Program-made: the position numbers and the translations under genes
The notes under the pieces: model-generated
The model's input: the letters and a program-made list of their open reading frames with translations, nothing else
Databases searched by the model: none
What the model was told of the DNA's origin: nothing
Shown: positions 16,493-58,415 of the stretch, piece by piece
Position numbering within the stretch: the first letter of the stretch is position 1
Layout: each line of letters begins with the position of its first letter
Assembly: GCA_963971285.1 (NCBI GenBank)
Contig: OZ020258.1
Location: forward strand, 15,951,390-16,015,389
DNA: 64,000 nt
From: Astropecten irregularis
Lineage: Eukaryota; Echinodermata; Asteroidea; Paxillosida; Astropectinidae
Direction: 5' to 3'

Positions 16493-19400
16493 ATGTTCCG
16501 CAAGAAGAGAAAGGAGCGCTCAGACCCTAAAGAGGTTGCTATTGCAGCAGCATTAGAGGCAGTAGCCAAGACTGAACATCCACCTAGAAGACAAGGAAGT
16601 TGTGAGTCCGCAGTCCAGACTACTCATCGTGGTATACAATTATCATCCAGTAATACTCAGGTTTGTACTTTTCATATTTGTGTGTACCGAAAAAATGTTT
16701 TGCAACTCAAGTTTGAGGGATGATATCTTTTTTGTTACTGATCTATGAACGGTGAAACTGGTATCATTGGAAAGCTTGATTATTCTTCTTTGCAATGATA
16801 TGTCATTTGTTATGCTACTATCATGGAATATGTAGTCCTGATAAATATTCAGCAATGTCAAAAATGAAATGTTGCAAAATGTGTTGTTTTCAGTAGTTAA
16901 TTCCCAATTGTTTGAGGATGGAGTGAGTTTGATGAATGGTGTTGATGCACTGATGCATGAAAGCACGGTCCAAACATGGTGTATTCTCATTCACATTTTG
17001 CAGCATTTCACTTCTGACTTTGCCCTTTATTCAGGAGAAATGCACATTCCACGATTACATAATCACAACAGATGGAACACCATTGTCAAGAGGAATAATG
17101 AAGCTTTCCAATGATACCAGGTTTCTGGGTACCAGTTTCACCGTTCATATAGATCAGTAACAAAAAAGATATCATCCCTCAAACTACAATTGCAGAACTA
17201 TTGTTGAGGAGTTAAAATGTTTGAAAATGCCGGAAAACACAAGAAGACAGCCCAGAAATACAAATTGGAAATCCTGTAAGAATAACATCAACGGTAAGTA
17301 GAGGGCGCAAGTTCGAGGACTATCGCATGGAATCTGACTTATTCATGGTGCGTGTGCTGGTTTCGCTGATACTGTAATGTCGTGCGTAAAAATATGATCT
17401 TTTCTTAATACTCAGGCCTCGAAATGTTCACTAGACCGTGGATCGAGTCTTGTGATTTCATTGTCAGTCTAGTAAAGTGTGTACTGCACTACTCTAGCTG
17501 TCTAGTGATTTTGTTTGACTTGCACATGAATGCCACACGTCTAGTGAAAACAAGTTGAGGTCTAGTGAAGTGCTTCAGTTACTAGACCTGCTGTCCGGTG
17601 CTTTTTTTTCACGAAAATTAAGCCGTGATACTGTGTAAACTTGCAGTTTATAATGCTTTGTTCTTTGGTGTGTTCTTCTCTTGTGCTTTTTATGATGGTA
17701 TATTTTTCCAGTGTTTTGCTGAGCTGTTAGCCAGTGCCTGGTCATTATAACATTTAAAAACTATCATGTGTGTATGTAATATTTGATATGCAGGGAAATA
17801 CAAGCATGGTGCACAGCAGTCAACGAGAGAACCACAGTATGCCTATGAACAACAGACTGCATACAAATCCAGTCTCAGGTTTACCAGGTAAATATTTTTT
17901 ATAGATTTAGACTAGCCCAGCTGCTAGTCAAAATGAACAGCTTTCTTGTACATTATGTATCATATTGTTACTTTTAATAAACGATTTGGATAATGGTTGA
18001 TTAAAGGTACAGTACAGGATTGGTAACATACCCAAACAGAAATGTTCACAGATTTACGTAAAACTTTCAGGGTATGAAGGTAGAAACATACCATGGAAAT
18101 ATTTCCGCCTGAAATGGTGTATTTATCCAGAAATTAGTTAAACAAAAAGTGAAAACAGTTTTGATCTCGGGGTACATGTCAGATCAAAACCATTCTTTAT
18201 GTTTTATAAGAAAAATTGAGTCGGGTTTTCACTATTTCCTCGTGACTCGGATGTCCGATTGAGCTCAAATTTCCACATGTTTATCATTTCATGTACATGC
18301 TGGATCAGACAAAGTGCCAGTGCTGTGACCTTGACCAATCATGTATTGTACCTTTAAACTTTGGCCATGATGCTAAGATACATTGCTAGTGTAGTGAAGT
18401 GTAAAGGGAACTTCTCGCATACTTGATTAAAAAATATTGTGAAAAGCGACGATTGCACGGAAGAACACGTTAACATCGCGTACGATGCATAATGCACACC
18501 GCATGCACATCACATGGCCGCATGGCCCGGCCCATGCAGCAGCATTGCATCCAGAAAATTCCACGATTGGTATACGTGCCACACCATTCAAAGCATACGA
18601 AGTGCACAAGCGAAGTACACATTCGTGAATTCTCCGTCAATCGGGCAGGAAGTACAAGCCTATTATGTCGTATATATACGTACAACGTGTGTATTTGGTG
18701 CAGTCAGGTCGCGCTCGGTACCGTGGGTTTCAGCCGAAATGTGACATGTCACGCTGAGCAAGTTATGAACGATTCTGACCATCTGACTGAATATTCTGTA
18801 AGGTTGCCGGCACCAAATCATCGCAAGATTCCCAAACACGCACATAGACCAAGACCAGAATCTCATGTACTATAATACTTTGCTGCAACGACACATGCGC
18901 AATATAGCACTGTCATTCATTTTTATAAATCGGAACTCGAGCAACCGATCATTTTTTTAAAGCGTTATCCGGTTTTCAAAAGCTCCGAAAATGCACAGCA
19001 CTAGAGTATGCATGGTGCCTCGAAAGGCAGAACTTGCCAAAGTAAGGATCAATGTATTATGTGTTACGCACCAAGTTCGCCTGTCGGCACTCGATTGGCA
19101 CGGCAGAAATAAAACAAAAGGGAGACCAGAACTTTAGTTAATTAGGAATCACTTGACCCCTTGATTATTTTAATACTTTCAAAGAAAGATCAAATAATTG
19201 GAGCAAATCAACAAAATACTACAATGTCAAATGGCGAGGCAAACATACAATAAGTTAACTACAGTAAGTTAAGTACAGTAAGTAAAGTTAACTATACCGG
19301 GGATAAGTAGAGGTGGACTAGCGTGAGGTTTGGGCGTGTTCCTCGGAACGGTTGCGCATCAAGCGGGCTGCGCGGGTTACGATCGGTCGCCTGCGGTGAG

Positions 19401-28400: not shown

Positions 28401-31400
28401 CCTGGACATGTCCAAGGCTTTCGATACAATGTCACATCACATCCTACTCGAGAAACTGGCTACTACATTCAACTTGCGGGGTGAGTTGTGGCATTGGATT
28501 CGATCGTTTTTGACTGGTCGCAGGCAGCGGGTAATCTTTGGGGGTGGCGTCTCTCCATGGGTGGATGTCACTTCAGGTGTACCCCAGGGTAGCGTACTTG
28601 GGCCCTTATTTTTCAATCTTTTTGTTAATGACATATCCTTGTCAATTTCCTCCAGCTGTTTACTATTCGCAGATGATTGTCTTTTATACCGTGCCATACA
28701 GTGTCATGACGATGTAACTGAGCTTCAACTGGATTTAGATACACTTAAAAACTGGTGTGATGTTAATGACATGACCTTCAATACTGGCAAAACCAAAGTC
28801 ATGCATATCACTAGGAGACGCCAAATAAACCCTCCAGTTTATAATTTAGGTAACATTCCACTGAATAGCACTAACTCACATCAATATTTGGGCCTCACTA
28901 TAGACAGCAACCTCAACTGGACATCACATGTCGACTCTATCATAGCTAGAGCCAATCGCATCTTAGGGTTCATCAGAACGATTGCTAGGGGCTCCTCCCC
29001 GAATGCAATTTTCACATTATACAAGTCGCTCATTCTCCCTATACTTGAATACGGCTTGCCAGCTTGGCACCCACACACCACAAGTCAACAGCATAAACTC
29101 AAAAGAGTCCAACGTACTGCTACCCGACTTGCTCTTGGCCAAAGACGGGGGGAAATGTCGTATGAGGACAGATTGCAGCGGCTTAACTGGCACTCCCTAA
29201 TCCATAGGCGTAATTATCTTCTTTGTTCCTTTGCGTTCAAGGTTCTGCACGGCTTATCAATCTGCGACTCCCTACATAACAACATTATTATCAATCTCCG
29301 TCATCTTGACTCACTCACATTCCGCCATCTTCCAGCTCGCACTGACCTGTTACTACACTCTCCTTCCCGTCGATTCCCTAGGTTTTGGAACACTACTCCT
29401 TCACACATTCGAGAAGCCGCTGTAGTCAGTCCTTTGCCGACACTTCTCCGCCTACTTCACGACTTCTGCTTAAACTCACATTAATTGCCTTTCCTTTTCA
29501 TTCCAGTTACATTCAATTTTACCTCCTAGCTTAGTTGAGAACATGCAAGAGTGTGGACTTGATTGTTTTTCCTCTCAACCTGTTGTGTGTGCTTTTTACG
29601 TGTCTTTTGTCGTAGTACATATTATGTTGGGACCGCATGCTTCCGAGCAACAGTAATTTAGTTTACTTTTGTTGTCCCTGACCTGCATAATATTGTTATT
29701 GTCATTGTTGTTAGTTGTATTGGTTCTTCCCATTGTTTAGTCTTAACGCGAATTTGAATTCCCATTCTTGCATGCTACTCTCCTTGGTCTTACGGTTTTT
29801 TCATTCGCCTTTACTTTGCTGTTCTGCTTGTCTAGCCGCTCTCCATTACGATTATAATTACTATTATAAATTATCATTGTTTACGTTCCTTTGCTTGTTT
29901 TTTTTTGTGCTTGGGCTTTGTTTCAACATCATTGTTCTTGTTCTTGTTCTGTATTGTATTTGTTGTTGAGGTCGAATAAATAATAATAATAATAATAATA
30001 ATAATCTTCCCAAGTCCCAACGAAAAAATCTATACTGTACATGTATGTGTAATAACAGATTAGATACGGTATGTACAGGGTATGACTTTATGCCACTGAC
30101 TCCACCCAGCTAGCTTAGCATCTGTAAAGCAGGAGGTCGTGGGTTCGAATCCCACCTGAGCCAGCAAATTATATTTTTCATGTGCAGTCAAATAGTGAAG
30201 TGCTCATTTTCATCAGTGTAGGGTAATCTTTTATTTGCATGACATTGTATGCAATTTTGGGTTTTGGGATTGAAAATAATGTGTACAGATCATACTGTAC
30301 ACACATGTAGATGTTTACATAAATGCTGTCATACTAGTTCTGTACATATGTTTATGTTAAGGTCCATTTGTTGGTTTAGAGAAATACATGTTTGTTTGTT
30401 TGTTTTTAATTCATTAGGTCATTATATGTCCGTGGAGCTGAGTGTGGATTTTACAGTGCGTTATGTAGGAATGATTCACAATGCACAGGGTTTACAGCAT
30501 TCTGAGGAAGATGAAGTTGATCTGATTAATGCATTGGACCAAGCTCAGGTATGTACATGTACATCCATTAATTCCTCTATCTTGCCTCCCTTCATTGGTC
30601 TGGGAATTGTAAAGTTTCCTAGACCAAGCTCATCATGTTAAAGCCCTAAGTCCAGCGGGGTCATAATTCTCTAAAAAAAGACAAATTTTAGTTTATTTGC
30701 CAGTGTATTAGACTAAATTGGTGCCAAATCTTGTCAAATTTCAGCCACTAATATTAGGGAAATTATAAACGAAAAAAGATAATTAAATATTCAAAAGTTG
30801 CGCTTATTCAACCATTGACCATATACTGCCGTGGTGGGCGCTGTCGTTCCTTCCTGGGGATGTGACATCATGACAGGTACTCATCCTGCTAGTTAGCTAC
30901 AGTTCGTACAACTTTGCACTGTATGTACAATTGTACAATGTATGTAGCAGCCATGTCATTAAAGAAAGTGCCTCGTAATTGAGTTGTACATGTAGCTTGC
31001 TGCACACGAACATCAAAGAAAAAGTGTCACTATCCATCGCCGTGTATGGTTATTTGTGGAGATAGAAAAGGTATTATGTAGGCCCACATACATGTACATT
31101 GTACAACTATGCATTGTGTGATGCCGTCGTCAAAATATTTCTGCCTGAACAAGTACCTGTCATGACGTCACTGGTCGTATTTCATAGTATGCAAATGAGA
31201 GGCATGGCGAACCAGGTTTTTTGATGAGCTCTCGTCGGTAGGCTTTACTTTTTTGCGGCGTTTTTTCACATACAGAGGAAACAGTACAGCATTTTCTATC
31301 TTCCCTGTCTTTATTGACATAATATCTTTAGAGATAAGCCTCAATTTTGGATTTCCCATCCTCGTTAGACCAGGGCTTTAATATTTGTATTCATCTTTTG

Positions 31401-34400
31401 TATTTTTAGCTGTTTCGCATGCAGCGGAACAGCTATTATTTTTGTTATTTTTTTTATTTTTTTTATTCCACTTTTTTCCCATAGACATAACACAGGGATT
31501 TCCTACAAGTCACTTCTACCATTATGCCAATTCCGATCAACTTCATACTTGGCACATAGTTAGACCACCACCCCGAATAGTGTCCCGCGTATGTACGTCA
31601 TCATGACGTCATCACGTGCACAGTTACGTCATCATAAAAGTGCAAATTTTAGGGCTCTTTATCTCCGGAACGGCAAGTCCGATGCAGCTCAAACTTAAGT
31701 ATATGGGGATGTGTTATAGACAAAAATTGCAGTCACGTGTTGATGACGTCATCTTGTGATTTTTTACAAATTATTCAATTTTTGGACCTTTTCTTTATAT
31801 CTCATGAACGACAAATCGTATTTTCGAAATTCTTTCAGCAAAATGTTTGTTAGGCTATAGGCACATGCCACAAAATACCAAAAAGTTGTGACGTCATGAT
31901 GACGTCATCAAAAAGCCGATTTTCAGATTTACATATAAGGGAATATCCGATGGTGATGAAACTTGGTGGGTAGGTAGGGAATGGTACTAGTATCCCAAAT
32001 ATGAAGTGATGTCACGATGACGTCATCGACTGATTTTTTTATTGATTTTTGAATAATTAATTTTGCCATTTTTTCCCAGAAACAAATAGAAGTGAATATC
32101 CGATCGTGATGAAACCTGGTGGTTAGATGGGGAATCGTACTAGTATCCCAAATGTGAAGTGACGTCACGATGACGTCATCGACTTATTTTTTTTAATCAT
32201 TAATTTTGCTATTTAGAGTCAAACATAACACATAACACGAGCTTTTGAATTTTTTGGACTGCTGATATAGCTATCAATAGTAGTAGACCACTTGTGTACA
32301 TGTGAACGGAGCACTACAAGCTAGAAAATCAATCATTTTGCTGTTTTCCCGTCCATGTACAACCATGCACGCTGGCCTATTAGTACGCTCAGCCATATCT
32401 GTGCCGTTTCTCATGGCCGTGTGTTACTATCTGCATACGTTTACGTGTGTTGATTGACGAGTGACAACGCTCCTGATAAGTTGTTGACGACAATCAAGAC
32501 TTAGCTATTTCTCCATACTGCCAATTTTTGTATACATTTGTTTTCTATATTTTATAAAACATACGCGAAACAGCTCAGTGTTTGTTACCAACAAACACAG
32601 GTCTAGTACATTTTGTTACCTTGGTTGATAACTCCTTGGGCCTGTGAACATGCAGGTCCCCAGTATGCTGCATCAATTTGATGATTGCTTTCTTATTTCC
32701 ATTGAATTGCATTGAATGGGGGTATTATCTGGAAGGAGACGTTTAATGAACCTTTATTGTCCTGCAAATGGGCTCATTGAGGGGAAACTACCCCTTAATT
32801 TGCAATTGAATAGATATTCTTTTTTGAGCAGATTGCAATTTGTGCGCCCTAAACACAGATGTGGTGATCAACACCGATTACAGTATGTCCACTAGAAACT
32901 GATTTGGGTTATTGTCAGTATTTAACCATTGTTTGGCTCATTTACACCAAGCTCCTTGCACACATGGCCTGGCCAGATGCACTCTGTGTGGTCTGATTCC
33001 TAGTATTCATGGCCAGTAAGAAAAGAAACTGTCAAAAGGGGATAAATCATGGTCATTTCAGTTGGTTGTGGTGGCTGCAAAACACCAATTGTAATAATAA
33101 TTATGATAAATAATATTCCTGAGTTTACATTGGGAAGAAATGAATGGACATTCGTTTGAGAAAGCGTTTGGTTCTGAAAGTGCTGTTCTTCTCAGAACCA
33201 CATACATGTACACCCTCTTGTATTACATTTAAATCCATGTTTCATAACCACATACTTTCCCGCTGAGAATGTACAATGTATTCATACAGTGTTGCCGTTT
33301 GTCTTCTTTCATTGACGTGGATATAAATGCACATGTACAAGTCTTTGTCAAACCATGCCTTGGGTTTCGGCTCAGAATTTCCCTCACCATCTAACAGCTG
33401 AACGTGTTTTCATGATTGTACAATACAGAATATCTGCTTTTATACCATATGAGAATATCCTTTGTTTAAACTCTGCTACTGTGAACTGAATGTGCAAAAT
33501 GATGGCACAGTGGAAGCCAGAGACCAAAGGCCATTTTGGTATTGACAAAATTATATCATCAGACTTGCTAAGCATAAATACTTAGCTACAAACTGCTGCT
33601 TAGCAAGAATCAACTCAAGCACAAGCAGTATGTTTACTATGTTTACTTATGATTAAGTGTTTTCTTTGGTGTATTGTGTTATTCATTACAGAGAGAAGCT
33701 CAGTTTAAACATGCAGATAATCAGCATGACATGATCTACCTCAACCTGTCTAAACATGGCGTCAAAGTCATTCAAGCTTTCTCACCAGATCATCAGGTAT
33801 GTAGACTTCATAGCTCATGTTTCTTCTGCTTTGTCTTGTTTTCTAACCCATCGCTCAAAGTGTCTTCATACATGTACATTTGTGTTACAGTGGAAGGCCA
33901 CTATAACGAACATAGCTATACCGAGCATTCGGCTATACCAAACATCATCCTTGGCTCCCAATTTTTTGTGTACAAAACTTACTGAACATTCCTATTTAAA
34001 AAAAAATATATAAAAAGATTTACCGTGACAGAAACAGAAATATTTACAGAGTAAAGGGGCCTTTCCATGTGCTTATACGTTGCATATGCGTCGCGTCGCA
34101 AAAAAATTGATAATTATACAAAAACAAGCAACCCTTTCCAAATGTGCGTGTTGGAAAGGGTCGCATGCGTCTTTCTAATGGGTAATTTTAACGCACACGC
34201 AACGTACACGCAACGTATACGCAACAAGCATTAAATATGAAGTGGATGAAAAAACGTGGATATGGAAAGGTGCCTTGCATCAAATTGCTGCTTGGCCAAA
34301 ATCTTAAGTACATATGTGTACATAGCCTTGGTCAAGGTACATAGCCTTGGTCAAGGCTTTGATCGTATTCGTTCCATGTGCATTATTATTTTTGTTCACA

Positions 34401-37400
34401 GCCCTCCCGATCGCCCCGCACGATCGTTTGCATGCACATTAGGCAAACAGCGACCTCTCGCAGTTGTGTGAAATATGCAAATTAGGTCTACTGGTATCAA
34501 AGCTGGATCACTCGTCAACGGGAGGTGTAGTGGGCGGAGCTAATTATGCTAATAGCGATAGACAGCCTTTTCAGTTCGCTCTTGGATTGGCTCGTTGAAC
34601 AGACTGCATTATTCAAATAGGCCTAGGTCATAATGTGGCGCGCGGGGTTGTAACGGACGGAACGTAACTATGTTCTGCCAGTTGATCGATCGAGTAGTAA
34701 TCGGTGATCACGTTAAAAGTGATTATATATACTTATTCAGATTGATATTTTCACAAGTATTCAAATCATATAGGACAACTGCCATTTTGCTGCCTGACAT
34801 GGAGTTTTCAACTTGTGCTATTGTCTAATTGCGTTTACAGATTTCCTCGTGTTGCATGCCTATCGATAAATTCACGAAAGGCGTCATGACCCTGCAGAAA
34901 GTGTTGAAGGCTTGCTGCTGCTGCTCGCCACGAAAATTTCCCAACAGTAATTCAAACAACATACATGTATTATATGACGTACAGCGTAGGCCTAGTACGG
35001 ACGGTTGTGCGACATCAACAGCTAGTCGTCTGGACAGAAATGCCATTCTTACATTGTGTATGCTTGTATACTGTGCTGTGATTGGACACTGCACACACAA
35101 TGGCCCGCCCCCACATTTCATATTCGCATACGAGGGCTTCACTGGAAATCCGGCGAAAAATAAAGAAACACATAAGCTTTCGTCGACGAGTGGTACAAGG
35201 CTTTGAAACCAGTAGACCTAATTTGCATATTTCACACCGAGACCGCGAGAGGTCGCTGTTTGCCTAATGTGCATTATTACTATTGTACGCAAACGATCAT
35301 GCGGAGTGGATCGGGAGCACTGTGAACAAAATAATAATGCACATGGTACGAATACAGTCAAAGCCTTGACCAAGGCTAATGTGTACATAAAGAGGGCGCA
35401 CTTCATTGGACCAGGGGGTGCTTTATAAAAATGGATGCTGAACACTGCTGGCAGCTGAAAATCGCTATACCAATCAATCATTTTGTGTATCCCGCGGTGT
35501 TCGTTTATATGGGTGTTCCACTGTATGCAATTTGAATAAAATGATTAATTTTTACTGATATTTCATGTGATAAGAACCCATACCTTGAGTTGCACATAAT
35601 TATTTGCTATGCGGCTACACCTACATGTACGTAGGTACTCAAATCTGTATCCTTGTGGAGACATGGCTTTGTTCTTGTGTACTAATGAACACTCTCCAAA
35701 GAGAATTGAAATCGCACCCATTTTAACCAGAATCACTTTCTTGAAAATTCTTCTTATACCTTGGAAATTCCAAATATCAGTTTTATAAAATCCTTGTGGA
35801 TTATGCTACCATCATTATACAATGTCAGAAGCTATGTTTTTTTTTTCTTAATAAAAGATAGTATCTTACTTTGGTTTTTGTCAAAGAAATACAGATTCAT
35901 TGTCAAAAATATCAAGAAAGATACAGTAACAGTCATCTATGACAATTTCAGTCCCATACAGTGCCCACTTTTTGAGAAAACAGTGAAAAACGGTCACAAT
36001 ATTTCTTAAGTCTCTTTTCATTTTTATCTTTGAAAGATCTGATATTGGCTGATAGTGGCTGATATTCCTATCATTGAACAATTGCAATAGACTGTAAACA
36101 TTCAAACTAATATCAACCTATTGAAAAGTGAACAAAGGAAAATTGACCAGAGCGGGATTCGACATGTTCAAACCAGCGATCTCTGGAATACCGTACAGGC
36201 ATTACAGAATACCTCTACCAACTGAGCTCAGGTGGTAGAGCATGGGTATGGTATTCCAGAGATCGCTGGTTTGAATCCCGCTCCAGTAAATGTTTCTTTG
36301 TTCACTTTTCAATGACTTAACGTTCAGTCAGGTTCCCTTTGTGGTTATAAGTTATCTACTGATATTTGAACAGATTGTGCGCTGGAGATATGGCTTACTA
36401 GAGGTGATCCGTCTGGTTCATTTTGAAGACTCTACAGGAAGTCAACTATTAGCCATGAAGATAGGTAAAGAAGGTGAAGATACATATGACTGTTTGCTCT
36501 TCCAGTGTGACCCTCAGGTAAGAGTTAGTCCTCCATACGGCCCTTTCACACTGCAGAGCCAATCCCCGGGAATTATTTACCCCAGCAACTACTCACACTA
36601 GACCCATGGTAACTCCCGGGGACACTATTTTTACAAATTGCTTTTCCCCTGGAAAAACGTAAAACCTCAGGAATTTCGGCTTTAACCCTACTCCCGAGTA
36701 GTCTATGTGATAGATATGCACTCGCCATACGGCAGGCGAGCGTCTATCGCATGCGTGCAGATTTCCTGATTAATTATGCAAGCCAACCCAGCACTGACCT
36801 CTCTAAGTTTTTACCAATCAAGGGGCATCTTCTATCGTACTGTTTGGCGAGCGAGTCTATCACGAAGATAACTGCTGCCGCATGGATGCGCAAAATTGAC
36901 CAATCAACATCCTCCTTCACGATCCTGGCTGATGTGCCGCGTTGCATAAAATTTGCATGCACGCATGTATCAGACGTTCGTACGTACGTAGTGACACGGA
37001 GTAGAATGGGTGATACTCAGACTAACTCCCGAGCAGGGTTAAACATTCCCTGGGCAATAGCTATTTCCCTGGGGATTTCTTTGGTAGTGTGAAAGGCCCG
37101 ACCTAAATACCCTGGCAATGCCCCACCAATTCCCCGGGGAATGTGTCTCTAGTATGAAGCCCCTACAGTGTGATTAGCTGTAATGAAACCATTACCAGTA
37201 TAAATTTGTCAATGTCTTATACATGCCATTTGTTCTAGGACTTTCCACATTGAACCTTTCATGTTGGCAAAAAATTCATCTTTTATGAACTTAGACATTT
37301 TATTGATTGATTATTGTGTGGTCTAGTGGGTGGAACTCAAGATCTTGTGGTCAATCTACAGATTGTGGGTTGGAGTCCAGCCATGGGCTAGTGGTGCTTG

Positions 37401-42591: not shown

Positions 42592-42660
42592 CAAATGAAT
42601 TGAAAAGTAAACAAAGAAAAATTTACTGAAACGGGATTCGAACTGGCGAATGAATGTTAC
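42592..42660 (-). mobile_element. tRNA-derived SINE fragment
   Basis: The reverse complement contains AGTTCGAATCCCGTTTCAGT and then TTTTTCTTTGTTTACTTTTC, the tail of the family at 55375. Confidence 0.6.
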
Positions 42661-42669
42661 AATGGCACC

Positions 42670-43546: not shown

Positions 43547-43549
43547 GAT

Positions 43550-44452: not shown

Positions 44453-44519
44453 TGGATCATTACAGGCCTGGTTAGTAAGGTCTATAGAGGTTGGCCTCAA
44501 TGTTTGAATAGAGAGATTT

Positions 44520-44641
44520 GGGGCCTGTTTGTTTAACGCAAAGGGTCCGAGATTTAGGGATCCACGTCCTATGCAGGGTACGCTAAAATGGAATCTGGAT
44601 TCGCAGGATTCGTGATCCTGTGCATTAAACAAACAGGCCCA
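44520..44641. mobile_element. Hairpin MITE (GGGGCCTGTTTGTTTAA ends)
   Basis: GGGCCTGTTTGTTTAA and TTAAACAAACAGGCCC are perfect inverted ends of a ~120-bp hairpin. Confidence 0.8.
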
Positions 44642-44698
44642 TAGTTCACAGCTAAAGGCCCATAGTTCACAGCTATGGCTGCCTCCATCTGGACTATT

Positions 44699-45612: not shown

Positions 45613-45802
45613 GGTTGGTATGTGATGGTCCCAGCTGATGCAGTTGTAGTTTATTAGAAATGACAGTGCAATGTGCAATATGCAATGTGCCTGTTTACAG
45701 ACAGTGACAAACATCATATCCTTTGTATACCTAAAAGGTTTTAAGGCTAAAGAATTGTTTTAATTGTAACAAATCCTATTAGATGCAGAAACCTTCAGGC
45801 AT

Positions 45803-45808
45803 TTTATT
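45803..45808 (-). terminator. Candidate polyadenylation signal for CCM2
   Basis: AATAAA on the minus strand, about 240 bp after the CCM2 stop codon. Position and strand fit a 3' UTR end, but no transcript evidence is available. Confidence 0.4.
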
Positions 45809-46048
45809 CTTCTTAACAACCAGCAGTGTAGAAGTGGGCTATGAAGAAGTACAGGTGCACAGTGCTACTTGGCTTAGTGGCTTTGAGCTCAGTGTAAACT
45901 CCTCACTATTGATGTAAGCTGTGTCCAGCTTGTTACACAGATGTGTAATCAAGTCCAATCCAGCAACTTCCACAGCAACACTTCATGATGAGTGGGCAAC
46001 AAGGAGTCAATACTCAGTCCACACGAGTCAATGTGCATGAGTCAACAT

Positions 46049-49000
46049 TCAAGAATCAACACTTGTCTCAAGATGCTCCACCTCGTTACAAATATCTTGC
46101 AGAGCTCGATCAAGTTCATCTCTTTCAGACATTATAGACTGGCTGTAGAGACCCATATCAAAGCCCCCTACTGAGGATGATGCTTCACTCTGTGTACGTC
46201 GTGAACGATGTGGACTCATGTAATAATACCCATTGGCTGGAGTCTCCTGAATGTTCATTCTCTCTAGAGTATTCTCAAAGTAGTCAATATCCTTCTCTGG
46301 AATGTAAGGTCTCATACCTGCAAGAAATGATTCAATAAAACAGAGCCTGTCAACTTCCAGCAACGATGATAAATGTGCCTATATCAACCCTATTTTGCAA
46401 GTCATTTTGTTGCAGAATGAGTGACAAGGACGGTCTGGGTGACTGGATCAAGTTGTGAGAGTTGAGCCTCAAGTTGCTTTATGTAGCTGGGATCTGGGTA
46501 AAAGTGCAATTTGCAACATCATAATAACTATTCCAAGCCAGATATTGTACAAAACTCATTGAGATTTTACAATGAAAATCCCAGCAACTTTACAAAAGCA
46601 CAGGCTTTGCTTTGATGGTTCTTTGTATTGAATACCTATAAATACCTTGAACTTTGTCAAGAATAACTGTACAAATACAACATTGTATACAAATTCTTCG
46701 TATTTTCAAATGTTGAATGTGGATGCCAGGATGAACCTTACCTGGAAAGAGTAGTTTACGTTCCGGGCCGTAAAGAGTTTGAAGTCTTGAGCAGAACTCC
46801 TTAATTGACCCTGTTTGTCTGTAGTCTCTTAAGATGGCAGCAAATTGCTGCAGCTCTTCGGAGGACAGTTTACTTCGGAGCTGTAAATCAAGCACAACAA
46901 TTTAGGAGAAGGAATAATCATATGAATTAGGACCTATATTAACTAGGGTCACCCCAATAAAGCAGATAATTTTATTTGTTTCATTCTCCATATGTACTTG
47001 AGATATGTATTACTTGGCAGCAAGTAAGCAGGTTGTACAACTCAAACTTTCTTGAGTGAAACACCTTCATTTGTCTTTGTCTGTGCCCTGTTGAAAACAT
47101 ACACCCCCTCAGACAAAAAATGGTCAATTTGGGTATAAAGTATAAAGCTATGGTTTAGGTCTTTTACACAACCGAAATCCTGTGTATTTAGTGTATCTTA
47201 CCACTTCAATGTAGTCCTGCAGTAATTCTTTAGCTGTGACACTGAGATCATCCATGCTATTGCTTTGCCTCAATGCTGGAGAGCTGGGATAGTCAGATGA
47301 TCCTATACTGGGCCTGTAATAAGTCATTCACAAATTATAAAGTTCACTGTAACACATGCTACACATTTTGTATTAGTTAATGGGTTGGATCTCACTTGAT
47401 CTTACAATGTGTGAAATTACCCACATGATTATGAAAGTTTCAATATCAACTTAAGAATATAGCTTATAGCGGCACAGCCAAAACCAAGCACAGATACAAA
47501 TTGAGACCGCATAAGTGTCTTCATCAGCCTGATAACTGCTTGTAGTCTGCAGCCGAAATGTCACTACATTTCAGCCAACATCGTTAGCCATCGAACAGTT
47601 AGCTTATGTGGATCAGTTTGCAGAAACACCATGTAAGTATTATTTGTACTTTTACACTTCTATTTCGTTTACATTTCTTGTAAGGTCTCAACATTTCGAC
47701 TAGCCTGCTCTAGTCATGATCAGGAGTCATCATCCATCATCCTGATAATGACTAGAGCAGGCTAGTTGAAAGGTTGAGACCTTACGAGAAGTGCGAACAA
47801 AAAAGAAGTGCGAAAGTACGAACGATTCTTACATGGTGTTTCTGTCACCATGCAAAGCCTCAAATCTTTTTTAAACAGCTTCTTACCATTTTTGACGTGA
47901 TAAAATAAACCCCACGTAAGATTATATCTCTTGGTTAACACAGTTGTAACTTCAAATCCCTTACAGTAGAATCAGGGGTCTGTAGACCTACATGTAGATG
48001 TGCTTGCATTATGTGCTTTGGATGGGCAAACATAAAATGGAAAGTTGATTTAACTTACGAAGGTGGCTGGAAGACATCTGGATCCAGGGGCGTTCGACTC
48101 GCAACGCTTCGTGATACTAAAAAACAAAACACAAAAAAATATGAAAATGTTATTATTCATGTTTGCTAGAATCTCTAAAATCAAGGTTTTGTGGCACTTT
48201 TTTTAATAGACTGCTGGTATTGAAGAGTTTATTGAAACAATAGGCCTAGTATTGGCTTTGAGTATCTGGACAGGGATACAACATCTAGTGACTTTCCTAC
48301 CATTGTTCAATATCTAAAGACATACTCTGACATGCTCTGTCAACATAATTCTGATCCTACAAACTTGTCAAATGTAATTATCCATGTAATCTGAGAGATA
48401 ACACCGTAAAAGATTATGGAGTACATGTATACCAGAGCTGCAGTTGGCACTCTGAATGGTTGAGAAATACCAGTCTTTAAATTGAATATGCTTATATTGT
48501 TCTATGAGTTCTAGTGCTGTGCATTAAAAACAGATTTCCAAGCTCCCGCTTAAAATTTAGCCATCTGGTTTCAAAATTTCAAAAACGATATAATGAAACC
48601 AACTTTTTAAAAAGTTTGCTGACGTTTGCCCAATGAATAAACAACCTCAAAAGTGTAGACTGTATAATACATACTTGAATTTTAGTCGGGTTTTTTGGTC
48701 CATTTTGTCAAGCAGAAACAAACTTTTCGCAAACTTGATTAAAAAAATATTGTGAACAGCCTTCTGAAAGCGACGATATCAAACATATCGCGTCCAATGC
48801 ATAATGCACATTGCATGCCCACCACGTGCGGCCCATGCAGCAGCAGCATTGCATCCAGAAAATTCCACGATGTCTATCCATGCCCCACCATTCAAAGCAT
48901 ACGTTGTGCACCAAATGCAATACACAGTCACCAATTCGCAATCGGGCCGAAAGTGCAAGCCTACATGTCGTACGTAATGTACAACGTGTGTATTTGGTGC

Positions 49001-52000
49001 ATGCAGTCAAGGCACGCTCGGTACTGTGGATTTTGGCCGGCTTCAATGCAGATTTTTCGGTAAGAAATGTGACATGTCACGCTGAGCAAGTTATGAACGA
49101 TTCTGACTGAACATTCTGTAAGGTTGCCGGCACCAAATCATGGCAAGATTCTCAAACACGCACGTAGATCGAGACCAGAAACTGAATGTATACGTCGGCG
49201 CAACGATCGTTGTACATGTACATGTAGCACGTTTACACACTCCTACATACGGCGCTATATGCATCCATTGATCATGCACATTATCAACACGTGCGCTATC
49301 ATTCATTTTTATAAATTGGAGCTCGGGTAACCGCTAATTTTTTCAAAGCGTTTTCCAGTTTTCAAAAGCTCTGAAAATGTACAGCACTAATGAGTTCTCC
49401 CAGATTAAACCACCAATAATTTGTTAACACAACACAAAGGTCATATTGAAACTCATTGCTATAGAATGTGCCACATTGGTTTTTTTTAACATGCTTGGAG
49501 TTAGGTAGTCTATGTGATAGACGCACTCGCCGTACAGCCAGCGAGCGTCTATCACATGCATTCAGATTTCCTGATTAATTATGCAAGCCAACCCAGCACT
49601 GACCTCTAGGTTTTGACCAATCAAGGGGGTTCTACATGTACTATCGTACCGTTTAGCGAGTGTGTCTATCACCTTAATTAAATGCTGCCACGCGGACGCG
49701 CGAAATTGACCAATCAACATCCTGTCACGATCCTGAAAAAATGTTCTCAAAACAGATCTGATTGGCTGATGTGCCGCATTGCATAAAATTTGCATGCACG
49801 CATACATCAGATGTTTGTACGTTGTGGCACGGAGTAGAACAGGTGATACTCAGACTAGGAGTTAGGAGGGCATGGCACATTTCGATCCTAGCAGGATCTT
49901 TATCGAAGACTAAAATTGATTGATTGTTTTAACTGCATATTTCAAGTTGTGATTGATGAAGTTGTTCTTACCACTTCCAAGAGATGTATTCCTAGCAGCT
50001 CGTATGATGCTCTGATCAAAGTATTTCATTGTCAGCTCAGTGTAAACTACGTAGAAAATCTGCTGAGCTAATGCACATATTTCATCTGCAATTTCCTGTT
50101 ATTAAACAAAATGACATCAAAAAGATCAGTCAGATCTGGTCAAGACAAGTACTGGTAGAACAAGCAAAGTCTACTGATTCCTTCTAATGTTGATCATGAG
50201 CATTGTCATGTTTGTAATAATATAAGTCCTTCTTTAACGATTTATTTTTTGGTTAACAAAGACTTTGGAAAACAAAGTCTTTTTACAAGATAATTCAGCT
50301 GGTTATGTGAACTTTCTAGTTTGAAGGACAAACATCACTTCCATCCTCCTACTACCCCCATATTGTATGCTCACCATTTTTGGCTTTTTTGCGTAAACGA
50401 AAAGCCTTTGTTTTTGTTCTATTATTTTTTTTCTTCTTCCTCTTCTTCTTGTCGCCGAAATTTCCATGGACTTTGCACATGTGCATTGTCGGCGCCACTT
50501 TGGCAACTTTTAAACAGACGATCTTAACCAAACTTGGTCATAACAAAGTCCCTATAGCGTATCTATATCAATTATGAAGGAACCCTAGGTCCGATTGAGT
50601 TGAAAGTTGGTATGTATCTAAGTGTATATCAAAAAAATACAATAACGTCATCATGACTTCATCGTGAGTGTATCATGTGACAACACCTTAAAAGGGGCAA
50701 ACTTCACACATCGTTTGAACTTGGTATGTATCCCGTACTCAACATTACTCTGTATTTTCTATTTGAGTGTCTGACATTGCATGTAAACAAAATGATTTAT
50801 TTATGCAATTGTAACCTGTTTATTACTGTTTACATTTACTACCAATTAATTACTGTAAATAATGATCTGTACTGTGTTAATTACTTGTTTGATATTTCAC
50901 ATGCAGGGCCCTAATAAACTGTTGTATTTTTATCTTTGAATAGATTCATTTGGATTGTAGATTGACAGATATTTTGGGAGATTCATTATGTCAAATCCAG
51001 TATAAATGTGGAAAAATTGTACTCACTATTTAGTGACGTTTCACTGATAAGCTATCATTTTCATCAGACTGGCGACTCATACCACTGCTCACTGTCCTTT
51101 TATTGACGTAGGAGACTGCCGTAGAGGGCGTGGTAATGAGACCGTCAAAGATGTTATGTAACTTGTAGGCCCCCTCGTCATAGCCTCATAGAACTTTGCG
51201 GAGCTACTTGGTTCATCCTAAGGACAAACTAGATCCTTGCCAGTAAGCGGACGCTGTATATGAGATCCCTTGCGCCAATTGTTCAAAATCTTATATTGGC
51301 GAAACAGGTCGCGCTTTTGGCATTAGATTGGAAGAACACCAGAAGGAGGTCAACAAGTTCGAACATAGACCATACCCAGAGCAACTCGCAAGGAGTCTTC
51401 TACGGAGCAGTACAAATCAGCCATCATAGACCATGTCGTAGCTAGACACCAACCACAACATTGACTGGGACAATGCTAAAATCATAGACCGGGAATCGGA
51501 CAAAACCACCAGATGGCTTAAAGAATCCATTTGGATCAGGAGGAGAGGTGACCATGTGCTCAACAGGGACGAGGGGGCCTACAAGTTACATAACATATTT
51601 GACGGTCTCATTACCACGCCCTCTACGGCAGTCTCCAACGTCAATAAAAGGACAGTGAGCAGTGGTATGAGTCGCCAGTCTGATGAAACTGATAGCTTAT
51701 CAGTGAAACGTCACTAAATAGTGAGTGACATGTTCCACCTTTACACTGGATTTGAAATAATGAATCTCCCAAAACATGTTGTATTTTTAATTGTTAACTG
51801 TTAATTGGCATACCCTTGGTAAATTATAAATGTAATGATAATAATAATTGTAAAAGGCATCAAAGGCCAGGCTAAGATCTAGGCACTACAGGATCTAGAC
51901 AATTAACATCTTTGAGAAAGAGACCAAGTTACCTTTGATTTGCACTCAATGACAACCAGGTTGCACTGTTCCTGTTGATTGTCAATAGCTGCACAAAATT

Positions 52001-55000
52001 AGGAAAACAAATTATCAATAAACGGTATGCTTCCTTCAAGTTTAGTACCAAATGGTTAAAATACCACATGTGACACAATATCAGTATGTATAAAATGCTG
52101 GTTTTATTTCAAGTTTGAGAACATTTTAAAACATATACATTTTGTATTGCCACTATCTCGATACAGACCTATAATCCTTTATAAATAAAATGTAAATCTG
52201 TTTCATATAGTTTAATTTGGTTACGATGTGTTAAAGTGAGACATATGATAGGACTTACCGATTTTAAACATAAGAAGATGTTGACCATCATCCCTGATAT
52301 AACTCACTGCTGCTATATCATGGATTGGCAATCGAACCAATGTCTCCTGAAAAGGAACAAATAATTCAGCATATCAATGAATGAAATTCTCACCCAAAAC
52401 GATTGGAAAGCAACACTTTTGACAAAATACAAAATATCTTGGTAACCTTAGCTTTATTTAACACACTGCAGAAGATGGAACGCATATCTGGTGCCAGACC
52501 GAGCATAATAGGTTTAATATGTCTCCACAAGGTTTTCACGTAACAGATATTTGGTAATAACATATAACTCAAAAAGGATGAATTTCCAAGGTAAACTTAT
52601 CTGTCCCAACGAGAAGTATTTTATATAAGGGATGTTCGCTAGATGTTCGAAGGGATGTTCTGCTCTTCGGAGAGTGATCATTAGCAGGCCTGGGCGATTA
52701 ACTCGATTAATCGATTAATCGCGATTACATTTCTGTGTCGATTACTCGATTAGTAAATTATGAACTACTCGATTAATCGTGCCAGTGCGATTAGTGCCGT
52801 CGAGTTGCGATTCATTCCATGAGTTACTACTATTCTCAGTCGATCAATAGCCATGCCGTGTGTGTTGCACGGAGCAGCTGCATAGACTTGATGACAAGTC
52901 GTTAGACATTCGTGTTTTGTCCGTCCGTCTGTCAAAATTAGGTACAATCATTGTGCATCATGCATCGTTCGTATAGTGAGGCATCGCGATCTTGATTCAA
53001 TAGGGGTCGAGGGTGTACATGTACCGCGGTCGCGTCCCCGCATGTTGGAAATAATGCAGGACGTAAACAGTGTAATGTGAACACGCACACCGTACCCCTG
53101 GTGTAGCGATACAATTACCGACTTGATATCAAGTCTGCCTGCTGCACGTGCACCGGATGCCCGCCCAATTGTGACAGCACCATGACAACATTTTGAGATT
53201 ACACTGTTATTGGCCAGTAGCCCTTCTAATAATACTGCCTTATATGGCCAACGTGGATGAGGCATGAATGAGGGCTATACCATATTACCATTTCGCTGTT
53301 TATTGAGGTACATTTAGTTATGTTGCATTTTCAATGAATACTATTTATCTCACTTAGTAATGAAACAAAAGGTTGTCGCACACAAACATAAGTTATTGAG
53401 TACATACAGTTTAAACGTGTCGCCGGGGTGAATTTTTATTCAACCCTGACAGCTGACAACGAAGTTTTTCTCAACCTAGGCCCACGTGTTTACAATGGAT
53501 TCGGCTACCATGGCTGACCAAGGCTTGGCGCATGGCGTGATGATATGACACTCAACTACTCGAGTGCAGACGCTATTCTATTAGACGATTACTGTACTGT
53601 ATCGTATCGTATGATAATCGTGAAGTGAACATGTGGAGTAATCGTGAACTGAAAAATAATCGCGATGTGTTTAGTAATCGTGAACTGAGTAATAATCGTG
53701 TTCACTGTTCAGTAATCTTGAACTGTATAATAATCGTGTTCACTGTTCAGCCTACATGGGGTGTACATTGTGTCATCGTGTACTATCGTTGACCTGTACA
53801 TGCATGGGTGGGACCACGTCTGTGTGTACCTACGTGAGGCAGTAACTGCATGCCTTGTCGGCCAACACTCCTCACGAAATTACCCTACTTTACTGAAGGA
53901 ATACCAATAATTATGGACGATATTAGCTTCACGAATTTTGCATTATACCTTGTCAGAACAAAAATGGCAGTGCTCAATGCCTCGGAAATCTGAACTGATC
54001 GCTGTTGAAACTTGTAAGAATCAATGCATTACGCTAGTGCAGTTTACTGCAGTGCCGCTATGATAAAAACAAGATACGTGTTGCTTGTATAGTCACTTCC
54101 GGGTAATCGCGATTAATCGATTAATCGCGATTATTTCCTCCGCGATTAATCGATTAGTGAAAAGCACTAATCGCCCAGGCCTAATCATTAGTACACAAGA
54201 ACAAAGCCATGTCTCCACAAGGATACAAATTCCGGTGTGCGTGCACCCAAAGTATGTATGTATACCATTGGTAAAGGTTCCCAGCTTAAATCATTGTAAA
54301 AAAACAATGTTAATTTTTCATTTAATAGCAGGACCTACTAGTTTCTACAGTTTTTGTACTAAGTCTAGGATATCATACACTGGTATATTAGTATCACTAT
54401 GTTTATTATGGGTTTATGGGTCAACCTGAAACTCTCATGATGTCATTGTAGTTTCTAGCTTACCTCCCCATCCCTCCTCACAACTTTGATTTGTTTGGCT
54501 GAAACTGACAAGATGGCGTCATGCTTACTGTCTCTTGTGTTCCATGGAAGCAGGCCTTGTTTCTTAACAGATCAAAAGCATCAAAAACACAAATTCTTTT
54601 ACAAGTAATAAACTGCTGCAAACTGCTCAACAGCCAAAATAATGACCTGAAATTTATAAAATGCTAGGAGTTAGGAGGGCCTGGTGCATTTCGATCCTAG
54701 CAGGATCTTTATCGAAGGCTAAAATTCTTTTAGTTATCAAATAATAGACAAGAAAAGTCCAGTGATGTTTATTGTTTACAATGTACATGATGTAGGTAAA
54801 CTCGCCGACTGTAAATGTGTTTGTTTTTTGGTTCTGCCTGCTCTGCACATGTATTTGATTAGCGTCACAGTCACACAGGTTATAATCATGAATCATGATA
54901 CAAACATTCCATTGTGTGCCAAGGACAAACACGCCTGTCAATGTGAACATAATACAAGCTTAAAACAGTAAATATTCATGTGTTGACTATGGCACATATA

Positions 55001-58000
55001 AAATTGCACTATTTCCTATCTTTGCAGGGTTTGTTCTTTTCAAACTAATTATATCTTGTAATATAAATGGTGCTGTGCTGTTTCCTTGGTTAGGCTTACA
55101 ATTTTGTTTTTGCAGAATCAGAACATATCATATTCAACTCCACAACGCTTGAATTTTTGACAGATTTATGTTGATATTTTTGTAAAAATTGAACTTGGAG
55201 CAAAATCTTCTTCAAACATTGCACTCTACATTATTTTTTACTAGTTATTCCGCCATGTGCCGTTATCAAGTGAGGTTGCAACATTGTTGATGAAATGATC
55301 CTTTGGATATAGCAGTGTGTGTGTGTGGTTTCATTGCTTTTGACTGCCAAACGAACAAAGACAATTGACTATTGGGGACACCACCAACATAGGGATGGAT
55401 AGCTCAGGTGGTAGGGCACCTGTACGGTATTCAGGAGGTCGCCGGTTCGAATCCCGCTCCAGTCAATTTGTCTTTGTTCACTTTTCAATGACGTTGATAT
55501 TTATACCAAATATTGTACTGTGTGGCTTTTTTTGGTTGTTCTATCTGTATTTTTCTGCCAGCTACTAGACTGCATAGTACAATGCACATACAGTGTACTT
55601 ACCTTTCCTTTGTCTGTGATTCTCAGAAGTTCTGTGCGTTTTGTTGGATCTAGTCCATATGATACACTCGGAATTGTACCCAAGTACTGTCATCAAACAC
55701 AAAAGATATATCACAATGTTAATATAACCACATATGCTATGGCTAGACTATTAGGACTGAAACCTTGGGCAACCCACTCCACTGACTCAAGATAACTACT
55801 TTTAAAGGCAGAACAGAAATCAGGTATAACAGAAAGGTATAAAGAATGGTGATGGTAGAAACATACCGTTAAAATATTTCTGCCTGAAATGCTGTATGTA
55901 TCCAGAAAAGAGAAAAACCAACTGTGACCAAAATTATTTTTGATCTTTTAAAGATCAAAAATAAAAGAGAAAAGACTCAAAAAATGGGCACCGTATGGGA
56001 TTGAAAGTTTCACAGATGACTGTTAGTGTATCTTCCTTTATATTTTTACACATGAATCAATTTTTCTTTGATAAAAACCAACGTATGATACTACCTGGCC
56101 TTCCTATTAACTCTTAATATTATTTTGCCCAAGGTACATTACTGCTGGCCTGACATTTAATGAAAATTGGCCAATCAGAGTAAGGAAATGGCAAAATAGC
56201 ATTTGCAGGAAGAATGCTTAAATACAAATCAAATAATACATTCGATATGATGACTTATAGTCATTGCTAGGAGCGTTCAATCCTAGCCCACTGTTAGTCT
56301 TACCGTTATTGCAATTTCTAAAAAGCTATCAATGAGAATCTGGGGATCAACTTTGTAATCTGGTGGGGTAAGCTCCACAGTCTTCAATGCTCGTCTACTC
56401 TCTGGCATGGTATGACTGTGATGAGGCATCTGGGCAGGGATTTCATGAGATTCTCGAGATTCTCGAGATTCCCTGGAGTGCCGATTGATTCCAACACGAT
56501 TCTTGTCTTTATCCTTGTCCTTGTTGAACAAACCCAATAGACCTCCTTGCTGTAATGGTAAGAGTAATCAACTTTACATTAAATGAACTACATGTACATG
56601 TAGGTCTCATAATACTTTATGATAGCCTAAGTTGTGGTGTGCTGTGATGTGGCCTAGTGTGTCAAAACTTGTGACCAATCAATCTACAGATTGTGGGTTC
56701 AAATCCAGCCATGGGCTTGTGGTCCTTTTGCAAGACGCTTTGTTATATATATATTGCTTCTCTTCACCCAGATGTAAATGGGTACCTGTGAGGGTAGAGA
56801 TGGCTTTGTCGTTTGATTAGCCTCGGCTATGTGCGCCCTATGGTAGCTGGGGCTGTATACTGTACTCCCCAGGGAGTTAAGATGGTTTCAGAAATGTATG
56901 TTAATTATGGCCTGATGACCAGGGATAATAATAAATTTGTAATGCCTGATATTATAAATGACTTAATACTGTTCTTATGTGCTGTATGCACTTGACCAGG
57001 TGCAATGGTTTGCATGATTTACATTTGGGCAATTCCAGCGTAACGGACATGACAATCCCACAGTTTTTGCCTTATTCAGAGGATCACAAAGTAGGATTGA
57101 CAGTTTGCAAACAATTTTAATTAGGCTTATCAGACAAATTTAACTATCAGTGACATACTGTACATGTAGAAAAAGTCATGTGATTTCATTGAACGGTTAT
57201 AGAGAAAATGCACTTCTTGTGATCGTAACGGACATGACACCAAATGGACAAGGCTTTTTGACCTGCATTTTGTAATGCAAATTCCTGTGAATTGTTAGAC
57301 TTAATGCACCTGATTTTGATTTAGTTTGAACCATAAGGCCATATTCTTATCATAATAAGTCCCAGTGTGAATTGTGAACGCAGACATTCAATTCATACTT
57401 CATAAAAAAGCATTTAATATTGTGGATGAAATTGAGTTTTGAGACAAATGCGGAAAAAGAAAACTGAAAACTGATCAGATTGTTTCCCTTGATGGTAACG
57501 GTTTACAAGCAGGTCCGATACCTATAAAGGGAATAAAAACAACTTAATACTTCTACTGTTCCAAAATGATACTTTTTACTTTCAGCATGTTCCTGAGTCC
57601 TTAAATCCCCAGATAGAAGAATTTTGTGCAACATTTCAGAGTAAAAATATAATTTTTTTAGGCCTACCTGTTTGTTGCAAACTTCAAAACAGCCCGTCGG
57701 CCATTTTGTCTGGTCTGGCTAGTCAAGTTTAGTCTGGTACCTGTACAACCAACGTATTGAAAGTCCACACAATGAGAGCAGACACTACACCATATTTTGC
57801 GCGTCTGCCGCCGTTACATGCGTTCATTACCATTTTTACCCCATAATTTCCCTCAAAAATCAAAGCCCTGCCCTCTTTCCACAAATTTAACCTTGTTAAT
57901 ATTATTGAAGAGGACACCACGAACGTATATTAACATGATTAAGGTTAGTTTCTTTATAAAAGTTTTTTTTTATTCCCTTTATAGGTATCGGACCTACTTA

Positions 58001-58415
58001 TAAACCGTTACCCCCTTGATATATCTGCCGTGCCTTTCCATTTAGACGGATATAATGTTTTTCACGAAATGAGTGCAACAGCACCAATGATGGTTCACGT
58101 ATAAGCAATGTACGTGAAATACACTGGGTGTGGTCACTTAGTTTGAGACTCTACATGCTTCTAATAATAGAAACCAGGTTATTTTGAAAAGATGTATTAT
58201 ACTCCTACATAAAGCACTCATTATCAATACTTTCAGTCATAAGAATCGACGATAAAATTTGAAAATCTGACGACACCTCAAAACTCGATGTTGTCGTCCA
58301 TTTTGTTTTCAATGACAAGGTACGGTTGAAAATCTACCACAAACAATAGAATAATCAACTGGATTCTTACCTTTTTCGATGAAGCTTTTGGAGTAATTTC
58401 TTCTTCCATGCCCAT
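46049..58415 (-). CDS. CCM2: CCM2 (malcavernin) ortholog, PTB and harmonin-homology domains
   Basis: Eleven exons join in frame with GT-AG introns: 58415-58371, 56549-56304, 55686-55603, 54562-54464, 52346-52259, 51988-51933, 50095-49972, 48116-48059, 47313-47202, 46880-46742 and 46317-46049. The product has 439 residues (human CCM2 has 444). A basic/Ser-rich N terminus is followed by the PTB domain (about 85-235), with YLGTIP, KHDAILSVSAKQIKVV, LPIHDIAAVSYIRDDG, CNLVVIEC and the helix EICALAQQIFYVVYTE. The C-terminal harmonin-homology domain (about 295-375) shows AKELLQDYIEVLRSKLSSEE, EFCSRLQTLYG and MRPYIPEKD, and the end is acidic. In vertebrates CCM2 binds an NPxY/F motif of KRIT1 through its PTB domain and MAP3K3 through the C-terminal domain, restraining MEKK3-KLF signalling. 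The in-frame ATG at 58415 was chosen; another follows two codons later. Introns hold many transposons. Family assignment is firm. Confidence 0.95.
47612..47850. mobile_element. MITE (GCAGAAACACC ends), copy 2
   Basis: The left arm CAGTTTGCAGAAACACCATG and right arm TTACATGGTGTTTCTG are inverted. The centre is a hairpin (GCCTGCTCTAGTCAT / ATGACTAGAGCAGGC). It lies in a CCM2 intron. Confidence 0.7.
48722..49385. repeat. ~570-bp dispersed repeat, copy 2
   Basis: Direct repeat of 18414-18985 with small indels. It lies in a CCM2 intron (between 48116 and 49972). Confidence 0.75.
49506..49857. mobile_element. Mutator-like MITE, copy 2, 9-bp target duplication
   Basis: The ends are TAGTCTATGTGATAGACG and GGTGATACTCAGACTA. 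It is flanked by exact 9-bp duplications GGAGTTAGG at 49497-49505 and 49858-49866. The related unoccupied site at 54662 reads through GGAGTTAGG once. Confidence 0.88.
49858..49925. repeat. Small hairpin-containing repeat, copy 1 (split)
   Basis: GGAGTTAGGAGGGCATGG, then GATCCTAGCAGGATC, matches 54662-54725. Its left few bases lie on the far side of the Mutator-like MITE. Confidence 0.7.
50998..51775 (+). mobile_element. Penelope-like element fragment, GIY-YIG endonuclease end, with inverted partial copy
   Basis: The plus-strand frame 51273-51400 reads CANCSKSYIGETGRAF and then GIRLEEHQ, a GIY-YIG endonuclease start. After a frame break near 51410-51460 it continues NIDWDNAKIIDRES, WLKESIWIRRRG and NRDEGAYKLHNIFDG to a TAA at 51716. 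The last ~180 bp (about 51560-51735) recur in inverted orientation at about 50998-51185. Inverted partial copies are typical of Penelope-like insertions. No reverse transcriptase is present. Confidence 0.75.
51680..51735 (+). ncRNA. Hammerhead-ribozyme-like motif in the Penelope-like element
   Basis: CTGATGA (51680-51686) is followed by a perfect 7-bp stem (ACTGATA / TATCAGT, 3-nt loop), then GAAAC (51705-51709) and a CACT/AGTG hairpin. These are the core boxes and stem II of a hammerhead. The inverted copy (about 51010-51060, minus strand) keeps the same boxes with one stem mismatch. Stem I pairing is not convincing, so activity is unproven. It overlaps the last codons of the endonuclease frame. 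Confidence 0.45.
52685..54183. mobile_element. hAT-like non-autonomous element, 8-bp target duplication
   Basis: The left end CAGGCCTGGGCGATTAAC and the right end TAATCGCCCAGGCCTA are inverted complements. It is flanked by exact ATCATTAG (52677-52684 and 54184-54191). The interior repeats ATTAATCGATTAATCG and TAATCGTGAACTG-type words and has no transposase frame. It sits in a CCM2 intron. A related uninterrupted site is at 35675-35710. Confidence 0.85.
54662..54725. repeat. Small hairpin-containing repeat, copy 2 (unoccupied site)
   Basis: CTAGGAGTTAGGAGGGCC, then GATCCTAGCAGGATC. It is the uninterrupted counterpart of 49491-49505 plus 49858-49925. Confidence 0.75.
55375..55495 (+). mobile_element. 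tRNA-derived SINE, single unit
   Basis: GGATAGCTCAGGTGGTAGGG (A-box region) and GGTTCGAATCCCGCTCCAGT (B box) are followed by the tail TTTGTTCACTTTTCAATGAC, as in the palindrome at 36121. Confidence 0.75.
55802..56095. mobile_element. Family A MITE copy 6, inverted and diverged
   Basis: It carries the family A interior in reverse and ends ACGTATGATACTACC. The left end is degraded. Confidence 0.65.
56633..56940 (+). mobile_element. tRNA-derived SINE with conserved core, copy 3
   Basis: Same order of blocks as 37316: GGCCTAGTGTGT head, GGGTTCAAATCCAGCC, CAAGACGCTTTGTTA, GTAAATGGGTACCTG, and the end GACCAGGGATAATAATAA. Confidence 0.75.
56995..57485. other. CCM2 intron 1 sequence, no feature recognised
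   Basis: Nothing coding is seen. The phrase GTAACGGACATGACA occurs twice (57041, 57227), perhaps from an older repeat. Confidence 0.35.
57494..58012. mobile_element. GGTAACGG-ended MITE, copy 2, 8-bp target duplication
   Basis: The ends GGTAACGGTTTACAAGCAGG and the complement ending CCGTTACC are flanked by exact CCCTTGAT at 57486-57493 and 58013-58020. It is homologous in reverse orientation to 11048-11520. Confidence 0.85.

Follow-up and report, generated by a model that had tools for sequence, protein, structure and literature searches.

Linked ICAP1 and CCM2 genes in the sea star Astropecten irregularis and their probable origin from one PTB gene

In vertebrates, ICAP1 (gene ITGB1BP1) and CCM2 both attach through PTB domains to KRIT1, a protein of brain-vessel disease, ICAP1 at NPxY motif 1 and CCM2 at NPxF 2/3; the further partners are the tail of beta-1 integrin for ICAP1 and MEKK3 for CCM2. 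The available portions of the literature treat the two as separate proteins, both of which use PTB domains on this one disease scaffold. No statement that their genes are linked or are sisters was found in the open-licence literature searched, an absence that carries little weight. Ancient tandem paralogue pairs are a familiar kind of arrangement, in which adjacent genes on opposite strands share introns and remain linked in distant lineages. A pair that resembles them in its adjacency, opposite strands and shared introns, and in its linkage among echinoderms, is formed by ICAP1 and CCM2 in a 64,000-nucleotide stretch of the sea star Astropecten irregularis (GenBank assembly GCA_963971285.1, contig OZ020258.1, positions 15,951,390 to 16,015,389 of the forward strand; hereafter the window), although in vertebrates the two products dock on separate motifs of a common scaffold, and protein classification assigns them to different families. 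ICAP1/CCM2 is probably an ancient paralogue pair and not a new kind of system.

Models of both genes were rebuilt from the DNA and are complete: ICAP1 on the plus strand (16493-37768; 6 exons, 240 amino acids) and CCM2 on the minus strand (58415-46049; 11 exons, 439 amino acids). Their frames are open until the stop codon, all 15 introns have GT-AG borders, and the best relative of each protein is from Patiria miniata, an asterinid sea star of the Valvatida (80% identity for ICAP1, 87% for CCM2). The full in-frame models described in the initial annotation were thereby recovered, 16493 and 58415 being the start codons. The two genes are not chance neighbours in this assembly, because one contig bears both in all seven echinoderm species that had ICAP1 and CCM2 alike among the matches listed. 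They are probably ancient sister genes, produced by local duplication of one intron-bearing PTB gene, which became two KRIT1 adaptors and stayed linked in echinoderms.

Kinship of the two PTB domains

The family identity of both proteins is clear. The PTB part of ICAP1 matches PF10480, the ICAP-1 family PTB, at 68.5 bits (cut-off 25), as do all 11 proteins of the ICAP1 set at E up to 1, and its nearest solved fold is ICAP1 itself. CCM2 passes the Pfam cut-offs for PF16545 (105.3 bits; cut-off 27.3), PF10480 and PF00640 (22.4 bits; cut-off 20.9), and its layout of an N-terminal PTB domain followed by a harmonin-homology domain was matched in 14 of 14 CCM2 proteins at E up to 1. Human ICAP1 likewise has a PTB domain with a basic N-terminus, and human CCM2 and CCM2L likewise combine the PTB and harmonin-homology domains. 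Every one of the 14 CCM2 proteins, that of the window included, has a phenylalanine aligned at position F217 (human numbering); mutation of this residue (F217A) abolishes KRIT1 binding, according to the available part of the source (PMC9309484). The segment LTMKYFDQSIIRAARN aligns with the LD-like CCM3-binding motif (human 223-238) and by alignment alone resembles it. Binding of KRIT1 by the sea star ICAP1 and CCM2 is assumed here by orthology. In Lytechinus pictus, the CCM2 protein (P0020) differs from the other echinoderm CCM2 proteins compared with it in and past the harmonin-homology domain at its C-terminus and may be an isoform or a model error.

Among PTB domains with solved structures, those of ICAP1 and CCM2 are close relatives. 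When the PDB was searched with CCM2, the best match by sequence outside CCM2 was ICAP1, which was also the best fold match outside CCM2; in fold searches run in both directions, the two stood clear of other PTB domains with solved structures. Absence from the VIA lists was never used to exclude any fold family. The first query piece reached ICAP1 in the PDB only at E 0.23.

The introns tell a similar story. ICAP1 has three introns within its PTB domain and CCM2 has five, and each of the three in ICAP1 is matched in CCM2 by an intron of equal phase and equal place in the predicted secondary structure, the structural anchor being the prediction for the orthologues from Patiria and Acanthaster. 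In the window, both genes have these three introns in phase 0. The first separates ICAP1 exons 3 (30418..30548, where the PTB domain begins) and 4 (33692..33796, PTB) and CCM2 exons 3 (55603..55686) and 4 (54464..54562), both PTB; it interrupts ICAP1 at DQAQ|REAQ and CCM2 at DKGK|KQGL, an exact coincidence in the intron-blind profile alignment, and is predicted to lie ahead of the final residue of the first helix. The second, between ICAP1 exons 4 and 5 (36374..36517, PTB) and CCM2 exons 4 and 5 (52259..52346, PTB), follows SPDHQ| and RRDGE|, respectively, one residue ahead of the predicted second strand of a hairpin in both proteins. The third lies directly before the exon for the C-terminal helix of the PTB domain, which is ICAP1 exon 6 (37688..37768, ending at the stop codon) and CCM2 exon 7 (49972..50095, which also encodes the LD-like segment and follows exon 6, 51933..51988, PTB); with ICAP1 CDPQ|GQAK and CCM2 CKSK|EIAD it again coincides exactly in the intron-blind alignment, past the first residue of the predicted last helix. 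When 3 and 5 introns were placed uniformly over 135 aligned codons, with phase frequencies of 0.5/0.27/0.23 of the authors' choice and with proto-splice-site bias ignored, three exact matches arose in 1 of 300,000 trials, and in 79 of 300,000 when two codons were allowed.

Human CCM2 exon 4 (184 bp in the accessible part of PMC6825194) is undivided and corresponds to the two sea star exons 4 and 5 (99 + 88 bp). Because the human exon is undivided at the middle intron, the sea star displays a likeness that is hidden in the human gene. Since sequence, fold and three coincident introns agree on a common origin, a sister origin of ICAP1 and CCM2 is likely.

Linkage and convergent arrangement

Linkage was assessed by comparing, for each species, the size of the source contig of its ICAP1 and CCM2 protein matches. 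The contigs were equal in length to the base in seven of seven species with both proteins among the matches listed: Patiria (42407541 bp), Acanthaster (4565964 bp), Diadema (39848065 bp), Lytechinus pictus (31958207 bp), Amphiura (86336683 bp), Anneissia (493605 bp) and Antedon (31698884 bp). These represent four of the five living echinoderm classes, crinoids included, sea cucumbers being absent among the matches listed. The contig size sets a ceiling on the distance between the genes of 494 kb in the crinoid Anneissia and 4.57 Mb in Acanthaster. The count leaves out Asterias (two different species), Strongylocentrotus and Lytechinus variegatus, with one gene each among the matches listed, as well as the hemichordates Ptychodera and Glandiceps, for which CCM2 alone was among the matches listed. 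The CCM2 protein search listed the best 120 of 337 matches, and further species may be hidden among the rest. The first protein-search queries consisted of ICAP1 without exon 2 and with exon 1 eleven bases short, and of CCM2 without exon 8. Strongylocentrotus purpuratus has two ICAP1 records (P0007 and P0008) with distinct locus names, their contigs measuring 37.3 Mb and 0.49 Mb, which may reflect a duplicate or an unplaced haplotig.

In the window, the genes converge on opposite strands, with a stop-to-stop interval of 8,280 bp (37769-46048); this inverted, tail-to-tail orientation was seen in this window only. About 26% of the interval consists of repeats present elsewhere in the window, and no recognisable gene lies in it: none of its 11 open reading frames of at least 80 amino acids has a Pfam match above the curated cut-off, and the sole Rfam match at the gathering threshold in the whole window is a tRNA at 55393, outside the interval. 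The initial annotation, which had placed the two stop codons 8.3 kb apart with no gene between, was correct on both points, and the unlinking in related genomes that it had entertained was not found in any of the seven species. Polyadenylation hexamers between the genes are numerous on either side and on both strands and settle nothing. A young inverted (hairpin) duplication was considered and rejected, because none of the 17 exons is covered by a within-window repeat (blastn, E 1e-6). The tRNA-Thr-like element at 55393-55465, in a CCM2 intron, has partial copies at 36225, 36109-36199 and 42599-42649, some with a common 3' flank, which suggests that it is a tRNA-derived short interspersed nuclear element and not a tRNA gene.

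Human ITGB1BP1 and CCM2, in contrast to their adjacent sea star counterparts, are on different chromosomes, at 2p25 and 7p13. In the available portions of three sources, human CCM2L shares a 20q11.21 interval with ID1, FOXS1, XKR7, KIF3B, ASXL1 and DNMT3B (PMC7487458), ASXL2 at 2p23.3 has KIF3C, DNMT3A and NCOA1 as neighbours (PMC11121404), and E2F6, ID2, SNTG2, GRHL1 and MYT1L of 2p25 belong to families that are also represented on 20q or 8q (PMC6585022). Human ITGB1BP1 (2p25) and CCM2L (20q11.21) thus appear to occupy paralogous segments of one paralogon (1/2/8/20), as expected if both genes lay on one ancestral chromosome and reciprocal loss of copies followed; in that case CCM2 would have moved to reach 7p13. 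This is a hint that the vertebrate ancestor also had the linkage.

Caenorhabditis elegans has genes named icap-1 (Y45F10D.10) and ccm-2 (K07A9.3), both presumably on chromosome IV, a weak sign given only six chromosomes. They were named as orthologues by threading, and each was recovered with KRI-1 by affinity purification-mass spectrometry, according to the accessible part of the source (PMC6470173). If they are true orthologues, the ICAP1/CCM2 split predates the protostome-deuterostome divergence.

Origin of the pair and competing explanations

Under the sister-gene explanation, a single intron-bearing PTB gene would have been copied locally, in the simplest form as an inverted tandem copy. 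The ancestral PTB protein would have bound an NPxY/F motif, and the copies would then have specialised as adaptors for different KRIT1 NPxY/F motifs, one remaining a lone PTB protein, ICAP1, that leads to beta-1 integrin, and the other, CCM2, leading to MEKK3. The pair has remained on one chromosome throughout echinoderm history, and its members remain direct tail-to-tail neighbours in this sea star. Descent and slow rearrangement would account for the arrangement, and the adjacency would need no present function, because convergent genes lack a common promoter and slow rearrangement suffices. A local and inverted duplication, a tail-to-tail order from the outset and a loss of the linkage in vertebrates are all plausible; the ancestral protein, we infer, already bound KRIT1. 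A more specific history is offered tentatively, as somewhat doubtful when taken whole: the KRIT1 adaptor system arose at one locus when an early animal acquired an inverted copy of one KRIT1-binding PTB gene, the copies split the NPxY/F motifs between integrin and MAP kinase control, and the linkage, an ancient one among animals, stayed intact in echinoderms but was broken up in vertebrates through duplication and loss.

The initial annotation had offered either an ancestral linkage that vertebrates broke or a relic of inverted duplication. The findings favour a combination of the two, given the linkage in seven of seven echinoderm species and the common origin indicated by sequence, fold and introns. 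Inversion is seen in this window only; the break in vertebrates gains only indirect backing from the placement of ITGB1BP1 and CCM2L in one paralogon, although CCM2 at 7p13 falls outside it.

Several observations weigh against a sister origin or narrow what it explains. The middle intron (ICAP1 SPDHQ|IVRW, CCM2 RRDGE|ETLV) is two codons off beside a gap in the intron-blind alignment and coincides on the structural anchor only, and two of the five CCM2 PTB introns are without a counterpart in ICAP1. The shared intron positions could be older than the pair and common to other PTB genes. The sequence link is one-sided in the PDB, because the ICAP1 profile did not recover CCM2 there at E up to 10. 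Two ICAP1 protein searches gave no named match beyond echinoderms (two of the 13 matches in one of them, P0132 and P0133, were nameless), and the contigs of five of the seven species are chromosome-sized and show same-chromosome linkage only. Outside echinoderms, human CCM2 (7p13) lies outside the 1/2/8/20 paralogon, whose whole-genome-duplication origin is disputed in the available part of PMC6585022, from which only the map was used here, and the C. elegans orthology comes from threading at 20-25% identity (available part of PMC6470173).

Coincidental old linkage is the strongest of the other explanations, but it is unlikely. It holds that distinct PTB genes met by chance before the echinoderm classes split and were kept together by slow chromosome evolution, their likeness being that of the PTB superfamily only. 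In the CCM2 search, however, sequence sets ICAP1 and CCM2 apart from other PTB domains, as fold does whichever of the two is the query; three introns coincide, and the human paralogon offers a hint of linkage outside echinoderms. That selection maintains the pair, through a common regulatory domain that co-expresses both KRIT1 adaptors and makes adjacency matter, is more improbable still. Retention of linkage in sea stars and urchins as well as in brittle stars and crinoids would fit such selection, as would the service of both proteins to one scaffold in vertebrates and the recovery of both with KRI-1 in C. elegans, as described in the available part of PMC6470173, whereas the convergent orientation rules out a common promoter, linkage in five of the seven species is at the level of the chromosome only, and the human genes cooperate even though they are apart. 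Misassembly or a recent local rearrangement that joined the genes in this assembly alone, which a scaffold gap and many interspersed repeats might suggest, is very unlikely: the only N run in the window (10830-11029) lies outside the pair and leaves the region at 38-46 kb, where the initial annotation had considered misassembly, free of gaps, both genes are complete, and assemblies of seven other species bear both on one contig.

If ICAP1 and CCM2 are true sister genes, their common KRIT1 partner was inherited and is not convergent, and the two-adaptor KRIT1 complex consists of duplicated binding modules that divide the motifs of one scaffold. The pair also provides a datable linkage marker, and sea stars are a place to study an arrangement that may be ancestral. 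A PDB entry of 2026 (9pvg) shows, according to its title, a single KRIT1 peptide that contains NPxF2 and NPxF3 and is bound by two CCM2 PTB domains, which bears on how the scaffold is shared.

Remaining exons and other features of the window

ICAP1 exon 1 (16493..16660) carries the start codon, encodes the basic N-terminus MFRKKRK, ends in phase 0 and aligns with Patiria protein P0001, which was also used to locate exon 2 (17794..17887), ending in phase 1. Exon 5 could be skipped in frame, because it has 144 bp with phase 0 at both borders; it is presumably the segment absent from human ICAP-1beta. CCM2 begins with exon 1 (58371..58415, start codon) and exon 2 (56304..56549). Exons 3 (84 bp), 8 (48059..48116; 58 bp), 9 (47202..47313; 112 bp) and 10 (46742..46880; 139 bp) have the lengths of human exons 3, 7, 8 and 9, respectively, in the accessible part of PMC6825194. 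The harmonin-homology domain is encoded by exon 10 and by exon 11 (46049..46317), which completes it (PF16545) and carries the C-terminus and stop codon. A first spliced alignment had proposed ICAP1 exons in 19547-20123 (in the minisatellite described below and beyond) and CCM2 exons at 51695-51615, 48002-47940 and 47449-47425, all of which were dropped once Patiria proteins had revealed the true exons.

ICAP1 intron 2 contains a 36-bp minisatellite of 15.3 copies with long open frames on both strands (19398-19952), a broken piggyBac-like transposase (21121-23401; DDE_Tnp_1_7 match at 21121-21708, the remainder recognised by eye), and two reverse transcriptase open reading frames of the long interspersed nuclear element type in opposite orientation (24119-29484), of which that on the plus strand is split over frames. 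Upstream of ICAP1 lies a 149-bp satellite array of 8.3 copies (11660-12887). Minus-strand exons at 486-7180 encode SRCR (6842-7180), WSC (4217-4618) and Sushi (3038-3283) domains, followed by an open reading frame at 486-911 that has several tyrosine motifs and no Pfam match; this region is probably part of a scavenger-receptor-like gene.

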